Assembly: GCF_003443615.1 (NCBI RefSeq)
Contig: NZ_CP031967.1
Span: forward strand, 3,410,001-3,474,000
DNA: 64,000 nt
Direction: 5' to 3'
DNA from: Alteromonas sp. BL110
GTDB lineage: Bacteria > Pseudomonadota > Gammaproteobacteria > Enterobacterales > Alteromonadaceae
Positions 32,396-35,720 of this stretch are shown here, in pieces; position 1 is the first letter of the stretch, and each line of letters opens with the position of its first letter. The notes under the pieces are model-generated. The model worked only from the letters and a program-made list of their open reading frames with translations. It was not told where the DNA came from and did no database searches. A program made the position numbers and the translations under genes.

Positions 32396-32962
32396 TCAGG
32401 CTTCTAAACTATCCACCTCTAATCCAAGAATTTTGGCCAGTATATCTGAGTCATCTTGTATTGCGTAATAATCTCCGTGAAACATTAACGCAATTCTCGT
32501 TTGGTTAGAAGTTAGAATGCTTAGCTCGTGATAAGTTCTTTGCGTACCTGATGTATATATTCGTGTCGTTACTAAAAGAAGCTTTTCAAAAGAATCAAAA
32601 GCAACTGTAGCTTTCGGGTTGTTCAAACTGCCGATGTTTAACACTTTTTCTTTTAGGTCAAAATAAAATGCTCTTCTGCTTCTTCTGCATATAAAAGCTG
32701 TGCCTAAACTAAAGAGTGCCCCTAGTGTAAATACGCCAATGACAAACTCGGTTTTAGAATTAAGGTTGGGTTCCAACTGCCAAACTTTAATTGACATGTA
32801 TATGCATATTGTCCAGCAGAAGAGATGCATTCCCCATTCAAACAAATAGCTTCTAAGGTTTGGAGTAATAGCGACGGCATCTTTATTAATATTTAAATTT
32901 GCGTTGCAAAAACTAGAAGCGGCTAGTTCTCGTGTAATAGTAATTTCGTCATCCGCTTTCAT
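32396..32962 (-). CDS. Hypothetical membrane protein, 188 aa
   Basis: A 188-residue protein with two predicted membrane helices (about residues 43-60 and 72-92), a polar N-terminal cytoplasmic segment and a C-terminal domain of about 95 residues rich in beta strands (KVLNIGSL and ELSILTSNQTRIAL). This layout recalls small PH-like or bPH2-type membrane proteins, but that is only an impression. Codon use and base composition are more AT-rich than in the flanking core genes. AGGGAATTT precedes the ATG on the minus strand. I do not recognise the family. It lies beside the microcin-like gene but on the opposite strand. Confidence 0.68.
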   Translation of the reverse strand: MKADDEITITRELAASSFCNANLNINKDAVAITPNLRSYLFEWGMHLFCWTICIYMSIKVWQLEPNLNSKTEFVIGVFTLGALFSLGTAFICRRSRRAFYFDLKEKVLNIGSLNNPKATVAFDSFEKLLLVTTRIYTSGTQRTYHELSILTSNQTRIALMFHGDYYAIQDDSDILAKILGLEVDSLEA

Positions 32963-33499
32963 ACTTAAATTCCCTTTTGAATAATAAAAACAAGTATAAG
33001 AAATATTAATGCCGTAGGCTACGCATAGAGGTAGTTGTATTTGAGTTTGATTTTACGTCTTTCAGCAAGGCCATTAGAGAAAATATGAAGTGGGTCGTCT
33101 TCGAGATAACTGGCGAATAACCTGACAATGTTAAGAAAGAATATCTTAGAGCAAATTGGCTAGCGTACAGGGCGTGATAAATACTGCCACAAATGTTGTT
33201 AGTTAGAAATTGAGTAATTATATTCAATCCCTTCTGATTATTTTTAGTTATTTAATTCTTACGAGTTAATAATAATTCATCTAAACCACTGTTTTATAGA
33301 GTTTATTTGTGGTTTGGGGGAATTTGATTTAATAATGAAAATACTAAATTATTTAAAGGACGAGCACTAGGGTGTTCGTTAAATTCAGTTATGTAATTAG
33401 TATGAGTTCTGAGTGCGAGCCATCAATATGTAAACTGAAAACTATCAGCGTAAGAGAGTCTAGCGAGCTCTCTAATTATATTTAAATAAGGAATCGAAA
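32963..33499. other. AT-rich intergenic stretch upstream of the microcin-like gene
   Basis: About 540 bases with no supported gene. A 73-codon minus-strand frame (33006-33227) has no good ribosome-binding site and reads as chance or as the remnant of a repeat. Close to the peptide gene, AGAGAG (33453-33458) can pair with CTCTCT (33468-33473) in the probable leader RNA. The stretch should hold promoters for both divergent genes. Confidence 0.45.
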
Positions 33500-33718
33500 A
33501 TGAAAGAAATATGTGAGATGGAAATTGCTCAAGTCAACGGCGGCAATCAATTACTTCTTGGAGTCGGAATTGGTTTAGCAGTAAATTATACATATGAAAG
33601 TATCGGCGGTGCTGCCGGAATTAACCGATATTTCGAAAACTCATGGGCTTCGATGAAGTCTTCTTACGATTACAATGTTAGAAGGTTGCGCAGAACCTTT
33701 GAGTTAAATCGCCCATAA
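33500..33718 (+). CDS. Candidate class II microcin precursor with GG leader
   Basis: A 72-residue peptide with a 15-residue leader, MKEICEMEIAQVNGG, that aligns without gaps to leaders of class II microcins such as microcin V and L (shared features: charged residue 2, E3, I4, E8, V12, G14-G15). Leaders of this kind are cut after the double glycine by C39-peptidase ABC exporters. The mature part would be about 57 residues: a glycine-rich hydrophobic segment (LLLGVGIGLAVNY, then GGAAG) and a basic, aromatic tail. AAGGAA precedes the ATG. A stem-loop and a small membrane protein gene follow. No C39 exporter or accessory gene is in the window, and a signalling rather than toxic role is possible. 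Confidence 0.62.
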   Translation: MKEICEMEIAQVNGGNQLLLGVGIGLAVNYTYESIGGAAGINRYFENSWASMKSSYDYNVRRLRRTFELNRP

Positions 33719-33725
33719 CTTTAGC

Positions 33726-33751
33726 TGGCCTGCTTTTCTAGTAGCAGGCCA
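33726..33751 (+). terminator. Stem-loop between the microcin-like gene and the membrane gene
   Basis: A 9-bp stem, TGGCCTGCT (33726-33734) and AGCAGGCCA (33743-33751), with an 8-base loop, follows the peptide stop by 7 bases. There is no T-run, so partial termination or protection of the upstream mRNA from decay is more likely than full termination. Confidence 0.6.
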
Positions 33752-33769
33752 CAATTACTCGGAACGATA

Positions 33770-34132
33770 ATGAACTACAAAGCATTTTTGGTCGCATGTG
33801 TATGTCTTCCTTGCGCAATATACTCTGACGGTTTTGTTGAGCAATATAGAAGTTCTGTTTCTGAAAACATTCTTTTGAGCACGGCTTTGTACTCAATGCC
33901 TAATTTTATTTCGGTATTTTTTGTTTCTTTGCCATTTATGTTTACTAGATACGCTTTCAAGAAAATATTGCTAGGATTAATTCTTGGTACAATAGTCTAT
34001 GAGTTTATGCAGGCTAAGTTAGACTGGGGAACAACAGACTATATGGATATTGTGTTTACAATCTTGGCTGGTTTGATATTAGTGTTGATATACAAATCGC
34101 TGATATATATGAAAGTATTGCAAAATGAATAG
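33770..34132 (+). CDS. Small membrane protein, possible immunity protein
   Basis: A 120-residue inner-membrane protein with three or four helices (about residues 5-20, 35-58, 65-82 and 92-112). The C-terminal half, YEFMQAKLDWGTTDYMDIVF, resembles the E-x2-Q...D-x2-D pattern of VanZ-like proteins, but the similarity is tentative. It lies 51 bases after the microcin-like gene on the same strand, so it may be the cognate immunity protein; known microcin immunity proteins are small membrane proteins. This role is inference from position only. GGAACGATA precedes the ATG. Base composition is AT-rich like its neighbour. Confidence 0.62.
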   Translation: MNYKAFLVACVCLPCAIYSDGFVEQYRSSVSENILLSTALYSMPNFISVFFVSLPFMFTRYAFKKILLGLILGTIVYEFMQAKLDWGTTDYMDIVFTILAGLILVLIYKSLIYMKVLQNE

Positions 34133-34286
34133 CATTAAAATTTAACCCATTGAGCACGAATTCAACTCTCTATTGCACCGTTTATACTCACAAGTTCAGG
34201 GAGAAGCACTCTCTTTTTAAACTCACGAATGATTAGAGGCTCTCAAAAAAGACCCTAAGCACTGCTTCACTTCTAGTCATTACCCG

Positions 34287-35720
34287 CTAACCGTTCTTCG
34301 CCCACAAATTCTGATGCTTTTTAAAACCGAAGAAATCGTAGGGTTCCCAAAAGCTTGGTACTAAATCATCAATAGCATCTGGCGTGAAATTGCTCGACAG
34401 CTGGCTCATAATTTCGCCTAATCTTTCTTGGCCCACGCGCATTAGCTTTTTTCTGTTCGCAGGGAAATATAGGTTTCTGCCTTTTGGAATGACTTCTTGC
34501 GCACCGCTGGTAATGTACTTTTGGTTCCTTGTTACTACTTTACACAAAGGCTCTGCGGGGTTCGCGGGGTTCAGTCCAATTACTATGGCACATTCATATT
34601 GGTCTTTCTCTTGGCCTTTTTCATTCTCAGGAATATAAGTAACACCAAAGCCTTGTGGGAAGTAGCCCACAAGTTCAACAAAGTCCTGTGCTAATTGCTT
34701 ATTAAGTCCGCCCTTTTTCGAAAGCTGCTCAATTAGTAAATATCCCTTGGGTAAGCTTATTCGTGAGTAGTCTGACTTGGTTGAAAGCACAATGGAAACG
34801 TAAATTTGAGGGATCTTTACAATCTCGCCCAAGCCGGTTTTTGACACAAAGGCGTCTTTAACCAAACTCAGCAAGAATTCGTTAGCCTCTTTGTGAGTTT
34901 GATTGAAACGGTCTCTCTCTTCTTTGTTATTACCAATGTAGTTGGGCTGTCCTAAACCATCGGATAAGTAACGTAACGTAAAGTGATAGTTCAGCTTCAG
35001 TAAGTCTTTTCGCTGTGATTCTTCTAATAAACGAAACTCATCTAGGTCGCCGTTTTCACCTTTTAATATGGTTTGCGCAGCAGGGCTTTGCAAGCCAATG
35101 TCTTGAAGCAAGGCTGCCGTGATAAGAGGGCGGCCTAACTCAGTTTTCCATTTGTCTCGCCAATAGCGGTTTCCGCGAAAGCGAGAGGCGGCTTCGCGGT
35201 ACTTTGATAAATATTTGTGGGCAATTGTGTCGTGTTCTAAAAGTCTATCTACTAAGCGCAACGTTAAAACAGCCTTGTAGAGCGGTTTGAAGCGCATATG
35301 CACACGAGCGAAGTTGCCCTCAGGACCTCGCGTCAGTAACATTATTGTCCCGAGCAGCTTGGCGCTTAGCTGTTGTGTTTCTTGCCAGTTATCGCCTTCA
35401 CAGAGTTCGATAATTTTAGTGCTTACCGCGTCCAAACGCTCTAATCTCGCTAAGCGTTCCTCTTCAAGTTTTTCTGAGCTATTTTGTATTTGTTGGGCAA
35501 GCTGTTCAGCTAATACTTCTTTCTTTTGATTACCTTCTATTCGCTCAAGCTGCGCTTTTAAGTCTTCGATATGCTGCTCAAGAGAAGGGGTGAGGGAAAA
35601 GTAATGACTGGCATCCTCAAAAACCGAACCGTAGCCCGAGTCTTTAGGATAAATCATGTTGATGAGTTGTTTTACCTGCTGGGTAAAAATGCTATCGGGG
35701 TTTTGGCTTTGTGCGCTCAC
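34287..35720 (-). CDS. Conserved hypothetical protein with degenerate HD-like domain
   Basis: A 477-residue cytoplasmic protein. A coiled coil spans about residues 47-100, and the middle holds a helical domain whose segment AALLQDIGL (203-210) looks like the core of an HD-GYP phosphodiesterase with the metal-binding histidine replaced by Q206. The segment ELVGYFPQGFGVTYI followed by AIVIGLNPANP recalls the C-terminal part of HD-GYP proteins. If related, it has probably lost catalysis and may bind a nucleotide or act as a scaffold. This is judged by eye and is uncertain. It lies 78 bases downstream of the patatin gene on the same strand, suggesting co-transcription. Confidence 0.72.
   Translation of the reverse strand: MSAQSQNPDSIFTQQVKQLINMIYPKDSGYGSVFEDASHYFSLTPSLEQHIEDLKAQLERIEGNQKKEVLAEQLAQQIQNSSEKLEEERLARLERLDAVSTKIIELCEGDNWQETQQLSAKLLGTIMLLTRGPEGNFARVHMRFKPLYKAVLTLRLVDRLLEHDTIAHKYLSKYREAASRFRGNRYWRDKWKTELGRPLITAALLQDIGLQSPAAQTILKGENGDLDEFRLLEESQRKDLLKLNYHFTLRYLSDGLGQPNYIGNNKEERDRFNQTHKEANEFLLSLVKDAFVSKTGLGEIVKIPQIYVSIVLSTKSDYSRISLPKGYLLIEQLSKKGGLNKQLAQDFVELVGYFPQGFGVTYIPENEKGQEKDQYECAIVIGLNPANPAEPLCKVVTRNQKYITSGAQEVIPKGRNLYFPANRKKLMRVGQERLGEIMSQLSSNFTPDAIDDLVPSFWEPYDFFGFKKHQNLWAKNG

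Follow-up and report, generated by a model that had tools for sequence, protein, structure and literature searches.

A gene pair at positions 33500–34132 of a 64 kb stretch of the Alteromonas sp. BL110 genome (the whole stretch analysed, hereafter the window) encodes a 72-residue peptide with a double-glycine leader and, behind it, a 120-residue VanZ-like membrane protein. Judging from sequence, we think it fairly likely that the pair is an orphan class II microcin-type bacteriocin served by a shared exporter, with the VanZ-like (Lipocone) protein as its immunity protein. The module is real, conserved and of a known bacteriocin type, and its VanZ-like partner is what seems new against the literature listings searched. 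The earlier prediction of such a pair is supported by the analysis, and none of the three outcomes that it named as refuting was observed. Support for the bacteriocin reading comes from the conserved leader and core, matches of relatives to the bacteriocin model TIGR03949, the pairing with VanZ-like genes, exporter genes in the genome, operon-like arrangements in relatives and selection on the peptide.

Layout of the gene pair

The precursor gene (33500–33718, + strand) has 72 codons, from an ATG at 33500 to a TAA stop at 33716–33718, and a Shine–Dalgarno-like AAGGAA can be read upstream at 33488–33493 (+). Its first 15 codons (33500–33544, +) form the double-glycine leader, as delimited by aligned family members and by a leader match in the PDB; the leader's final residues are GG, and the core starts with NQLLLGVGIGLAV. 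From the sequence and the member alignment, the core (33545–33715, +) is predicted to be a mature peptide of 57 aa with a calculated mass of 6.5 kDa and pI of 9.7. It is Gly-rich, with a GxxxG-like segment, a YTYESIGGAAGIN motif and a basic C-terminus.

The second gene (33770–34132, +) starts 51 bp 3′ of the peptide gene on the same strand and encodes a hydrophobic protein of 120 aa, a candidate immunity protein by its VanZ similarity and recurring neighbourhood. Between the genes lies a stem-loop (33726–33751, +) with a 9-bp stem, an 8-nt loop and no T-run; the segment 33707–33770 folds at −19.4 kcal/mol, and relative to 100 dinucleotide shuffles its z is −3.1. A hairpin with z < −2.5 was found in the same place at 5 of the 12 loci folded and is thus not universal. 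The original prediction had described just this arrangement, a 72-residue frame with a 15-residue leader ending in GG, then a stem-loop and a same-strand membrane protein of 120 residues, and every element was there. The window leader presumably also fits the microcin V/L leaders gap-free.

We applied a strict leader filter that required an ATG start, 40–150 aa, hydrophobic residues at −4, −7 and −12, E, D, S or Q at −8, a GG and an upstream Shine–Dalgarno-like tetramer. The ORF at 33500–33718 was the sole match in the 64 kb window, and 60 dinucleotide shuffles gave 0 matches. A looser filter added two window matches, both TTG-started.

Distribution and conservation of the peptide

The window peptide has no Pfam or NCBIfam name. 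When 59 genomes of the genus were searched with the single sequence, 10 gave a match at E ≤ 0.1. Full-length, leader-bearing matches were those of the genome itself (G000) and G022 (identical), G008 (50%) and G040 (49%); the matches in G019 and G043 were partial, that in G042 weak and broken, and those in G002, G009 and G053 weak. A profile search of the taxonomic family found 31 of 395 genomes at E ≤ 0.05, and a later one 84 of 395 at E ≤ 0.001, mostly via the leader alone; the best 30 loci of the later search were fetched. We took as the core family the 16 best loci (L083–L098, E ≤ 3.4 × 10−13), spread over nine genera, and counted 19 core loci by adding G042, G043 and Microbulbifer halophilus. 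The profile search in marine relatives proposed with the original prediction thus placed the core family in nine genera of the taxonomic family and in Microbulbifer. The core motif Y-x-Y-E/D-x-x-G-G-x-x-G-I-N/D is present as written at 14 of the 16 best loci, with broken or varied copies at the other two (G011 and G019), and homologues retain leader, core and gene order. Wider searches matched 5 of 394 genomes in the order, two of them outside the taxonomic family, and 2 of 369 in the class, one being the genome itself. RalF-type matches of the peptide (E 0.1–0.2) were taken as chance, and 72,556 plasmid records gave one weak match (E 0.3, Phocaeicola).

Two profile searches of a protein database returned 31 and 29 matches. 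Source names among them include ‘Bacteriocin’ (Thalassomonas viridans) and ‘lactobin A/cerein 7B family class IIb bacteriocin’; the others are hypothetical, uncharacterized or unnamed. Of 27 aligned members, 17 match the class IIb bacteriocin model TIGR03949 (lactobin A/cerein 7B) with E no higher than 1, the lowest being 1.8 × 10−8, although the window member gave no match; the family also differs in that its named members are marine Gram-negatives and in having one GG-leader ORF per core locus scanned. TIGR01847 matched 3 of the 27 at E ≤ 1.

The double-glycine site, on which the original prediction hinged, is kept among homologues: the leader ends in GG in 23, GA in 3 and AG in 1 of the 27 aligned members. 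Rather than lying inside a folded domain, it closes an N-terminal leader in all 27. The PDB yielded two hits with E no higher than 1, of which the better (E 0.01) is to pre-carnobacteriocin B2, across its leader only, and the other (E 0.25) to a CHAP protein.

Purifying selection acts between two related peptide genes, L025 and L027, which differ by nine synonymous changes and one non-synonymous change (dN/dS 0.03). That the window ORFs are chance frames or a functionless decayed relic might be suspected from the 7 of 19 core loci where the peptide is broken; but the window copy is undamaged and recurs unchanged in another genome of the genus, and this, the dN/dS value and the empty shuffles leave such an origin scarcely credible. 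Separately, at the match start of L013 and L014 the leader and core occupy separate reading frames about a run of G, with the core frame open, in both species; decay, slippage or an assembly error are candidate causes.

A GxxxG-like (G/A) segment falls in residues 16–40 of 26 of the 27 members, counted with a loose motif and without a shuffled control. Such a segment would also suit a surface-retained, contact-dependent killer rather than a diffusible microcin, on the model of Caulobacter Cdz, an atypical Gram-negative bacteriocin that is built of glycine-zipper proteins, leaves by type I secretion and has a small immunity protein in the membrane (PMC5380434). However, Cdz has two glycine-zipper peptides, their exporter and the immunity gene in one cluster, whereas the window has one ATG-started GG-leader ORF and no C39 match, and the core loci scanned show at most one GG-leader ORF and no pair. 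Nor, in the passages of PMC5380434 consulted, is the Cdz immunity protein termed VanZ-like. We regard a killer of the Cdz kind as unlikely.

Pairing with VanZ-like genes

A VanZ-like gene lies downstream of the peptide at all 19 core loci read, intact at 16 and decayed at 3. In a search with a partner profile, which was itself built from core-locus partners and has L025/L088, L024/L094 and L115 as its independent points, a same-strand neighbour was found at 14 of 16 core loci versus 0 of 14 leader-only loci (Fisher P = 8 × 10−7). The two misses, L026 and L027, have a decayed VanZ-like reading, and one leader-only locus (L103) with a match on the opposite strand, more than 0.8 kb off, was left out of the count. 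Peptide and VanZ-like sequences co-vary weakly over nine pairs (Mantel r = 0.32, P = 0.035, without species-tree control).

Other cores can have such a neighbour too: two leader-only peptides with different cores (L064 and L067) lie just upstream of a VanZ-like gene. Across the other VanZ-like matches in the genus (22 loci from 42 matches listed, one being that of G043 itself), a GG peptide was found upstream at these two loci and about 1 kb away at L057, and no accepted GG peptide at the rest. L064 and L067 raise the possibility that VanZ-like partners serve several peptide types.

Against the Pfam VanZ model (PF04892), the window protein scores 18.6 bits (E 0.0029), below the gathering cut-off of 30.1, and 11 of 12 aligned partners match at E ≤ 1 (best 1.1 × 10−6). 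Gly73, Tyr77, Glu78, Gln81, Asp90 and Asp93 are invariant in the 12 partners, Pro44 is present in 11 and the Asn45 that follows it in 10; the window protein has P44-N45, E78-x-x-Q81 and D90-x-x-D93, and the full DxDDxxxN form is absent from it. The Asn, ExxQ and Asp positions agree with those named, in helices H2, H3 and H4 respectively, for VanZ-1/Skillet Lipocones, for which action on lipid head groups has been predicted (PMC12419801), and with ExxQ and two Asp in 12 of 12 partners and the Asn after Pro in 10 of 12, the partner retains the predicted active-site residues of these proteins. The partner profile matched no PDB chain up to E 1, and the VanZ-like protein had no match in the 72,556 plasmid records. 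The 120-aa protein also hit UrtC at 20.1 bits, far below that model's cut-off of 575.55, and we regard this as chance.

The state of the two genes varies over the 19 core loci. Both are intact at ten (G000, G022, G008, G040, G183, G179, G390, G307, G107 and L115), both are broken at one (G043), the peptide is broken beside an intact VanZ-like gene at six (G131, G100, G011, G019, G219 and G042), and the VanZ-like gene is decayed beside an intact peptide at two genomes of one genus (G123 and G155), each with an intact CPBP gene downstream. Where there is any damage, then, it affects the peptide alone at 6 of 9 loci. A protector that outlasts its toxin is what is expected of an immunity gene, so these six loci fit that role, although the asymmetry of six to two falls short of significance by itself and related genomes do not count as independent observations.

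CPBP proteins (Abi/PlnI type) are of a bacteriocin-immunity type, and we searched for them with a CPBP profile. Four of the 19 core loci have a CPBP gene (Microbulbifer, G183, G123 and G155); none was found in the sequence read around the remaining 15, with flanks mostly of 1.5 kb, or at 30–38 kb of the window. Four g7 peptides with a related leader (L033–L036) adjoin a CPBP (Rce1-like) gene and have no VanZ-like neighbour. As in the pair studied here, CPBP/Abi proteins (Rce1-like, PF02517) in related loci are membrane proteins of an enzyme type encoded right after a GG-leader peptide; unlike it, the window region read lacks a CPBP gene.

These observations could also mean that the peptide is a bacteriocin but immunity comes from a CPBP-type or unlinked gene, with the VanZ-like protein acting in, for example, maturation or export. 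The retention of peptide and CPBP gene beside a decayed VanZ-like gene in G123 and G155 favours this, as do the VanZ-free loci L033–L036. We nevertheless judge it quite improbable, given the scarcity of CPBP genes at core loci and the six loci where the VanZ-like gene has outlived the peptide, a persistence that a maturation factor would leave unexplained.

History of the locus

Between 32900 and 34400 the window is near-identical to the second genome, G022 (98–100% identity in 100-bp bins), versus 78–83% in the upstream flank (32400–32899) and 83–95% in the downstream flank (34400–35199). In a survey of 21 genomes with the flank read, drawn from 30 loci fetched (the flanking gene occurs in 57 of 59 genomes), the pair sits at this site only in the genome itself and G022. 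A 178-aa gene occupies its place in G049 and G023, and G040 carries the pair on a different contig from its copy of the flanking gene. The pair has a GC content of 36.7% versus 43.8% for the window. The identity block, the sporadic occupancy of the site, the placement in G040 and the low GC suggest recent exchange of a module, and the block at 32900–34400 is probably a recently exchanged segment that carries the pair.

This history bears on whether the peptide kills at all. It might instead be a secreted double-glycine peptide with another job, as a signal, biofilm or lysis factor, with the VanZ-like protein as its receptor or as a lipid enzyme that it regulates. There are precedents: some small proteins with a GG leader have a role in biofilm (PMC4997328), some bacteriocin-like peptides have one in autolysis (PMC11798529), and VanZ-1 domains are found in signalling contexts (PMC12419801). 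Pheromone models also match some members weakly (VP1 4 of 27, BlpC 2 of 27), and regulators lie near the pair at no fewer than three core loci. G040 has a histidine kinase on the opposite strand, G131 has AraC-type and Trans_reg_C proteins, and G019 has Trans_reg_C and MarR-like proteins, the MarR-like one below its cut-off. These regulators, however, vary by locus, and the two proteins flanking the window pair have no Pfam family match. The sporadic spread, the probable recent exchange and the CPBP partners of related leader peptides fit a toxin and its immunity better, and we give a non-killing role a low probability.

Candidate exporters

No C39 match lies within the 64 kb window, so the peptide is, as had been predicted, a local orphan. 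The anticipated CvaB/CvaA-type exporter was found elsewhere in the genome, and twice: of four Peptidase_C39 matches, two are complete C39-ABC proteins (PCATs) of 738 and 758 aa, each adjoining an HlyD protein (membrane fusion protein), and the catalytic Cys, His and Asp can be read in both. A TolC-type protein is also encoded (TIGR01844, E 2.1 × 10−115, above the cut-off). The peptide gene lies at 3.44 Mb and the exporters at 1.58 and 2.23 Mb, so that precursor and exporter are not close together.

Each exporter cluster (L005 6825–12891, C1 ~1.58 Mb; L006 4421–9638, C1 ~2.23 Mb) contains HlyD, the C39-ABC protein, an ATP-grasp protein and a precursor with a GG leader and TMAIGEEGG or TMAIGEGGG in its core. 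Both are probably clusters for graspetides (omega-ester peptides), each with a PCAT of its own, and because both PCATs sit with ATP-grasp proteins and precursors of their own, sharing of an exporter by the window peptide is an assumption. Exporter presence is also weak support that does not discriminate, since 58 of the 59 genus members searched have a C39 match (as do 19 of 19 genomes in a further query); C39 co-occurrence was dropped as a test on account of this near-universality.

Two relatives have precursor and exporter genes together. In Microbulbifer halophilus (L115), HlyD, C39 and ABC parts (as separate ORFs), the peptide, the VanZ-like gene and a CPBP gene lie on one strand, with precursor and exporter genes side by side and a leader that ends in NAG. 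At L148 (G064), HlyD, a GG peptide with a similar leader and another core, CPBP and C39-ABC form an operon-like set.

Other GG-leader peptides were seen in passing. Two in tandem, with Gly/Ala-rich cores, are encoded at L116 4845–5148 (− strand, ~C1:1.571 Mb), about 10 kb before the first exporter and near a piece of an IS66-type transposase. At L018 1051–1620 (−), two adjoining GG-leader peptides are followed by a small membrane ORF in an arrangement like that of two-peptide bacteriocins.

Discussion

The nearest known system is that of microcin V (CvaC/Cvi/CvaB/CvaA/TolC). By the definitions in PMC9746304 and PMC10233263, the pair resembles it in the double-glycine leader, a core of 5–10 kDa, the neighbouring small membrane protein and a PCAT, MFP and TolC in the genome; it differs in that the exporter does not adjoin the window gene, the core is unnamed in Pfam and NCBIfam and the partner is VanZ-like. 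Immunity proteins of class II microcins span 51–216 aa, and the candidate here has 120 aa and adjoins the peptide gene. A 2022 survey of class II microcins covered Enterobacterales, Vibrionaceae and Pasteurellaceae, and ‘Alteromon’ occurs 0 times in its main text (PMC9746304). The main text of PMC12419801 likewise has 0 occurrences of ‘bacteriocin’ and of ‘microcin’, and in the titles and abstract openings searched, mostly outside subscription journals, the pairing of a GG-leader peptide with a VanZ-like protein was not described.

From the leader, core, pairing and exporter genes observed, we infer a route of export, killing and self-protection. Together with HlyD and TolC, a C39-peptidase ABC exporter from elsewhere in the genome would recognise the 72-aa precursor via its leader, cleave it after the GG and release a basic, glycine-zipper-like peptide of 57 aa, which may insert into the inner membrane of related cells. 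In the producer's own inner membrane the 120-aa VanZ-like protein would confer protection, either by binding the peptide or by altering or masking a lipid-linked docking site through its conserved Asn, E-x-x-Q and D-x-x-D residues. Against the bacteriocin reading, the window peptide passes no bacteriocin model, its 72 aa fall just below the range of 75–120 aa for precursors that have been verified, and in G123 and G155 the peptide has stayed intact beside a decayed VanZ-like gene, though an intact CPBP gene follows.

In a 2022 review, microcin immunity proteins were described as at present not locatable via conserved sequence features (PMC10233263). A recognisable family, VanZ-like, found with a single core type at each of the 19 loci read, offers a handle for finding such pairs from sequence and testing them. 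It would also tie VanZ, whose part in glycopeptide resistance is termed unknown (PMC7146870, PMC12419801), to self-protection against a peptide; VanZ-carrying cells reportedly bind less membrane-anchored teicoplanin, and the peptide LL37 is mentioned in the same paper (PMC7146870). A bolder idea, possible though doubtful, is that marine microcins recruited a VanZ-type Lipocone enzyme and that self-protection is enzymatic modification of the head group of the peptide's lipid-linked docking site. If so, the same immunity slot would be filled in relatives by another type of intramembrane enzyme, CPBP, and glycopeptide resistance by VanZ would be one case of a wider job, that of keeping membrane-anchored peptides off the cell.
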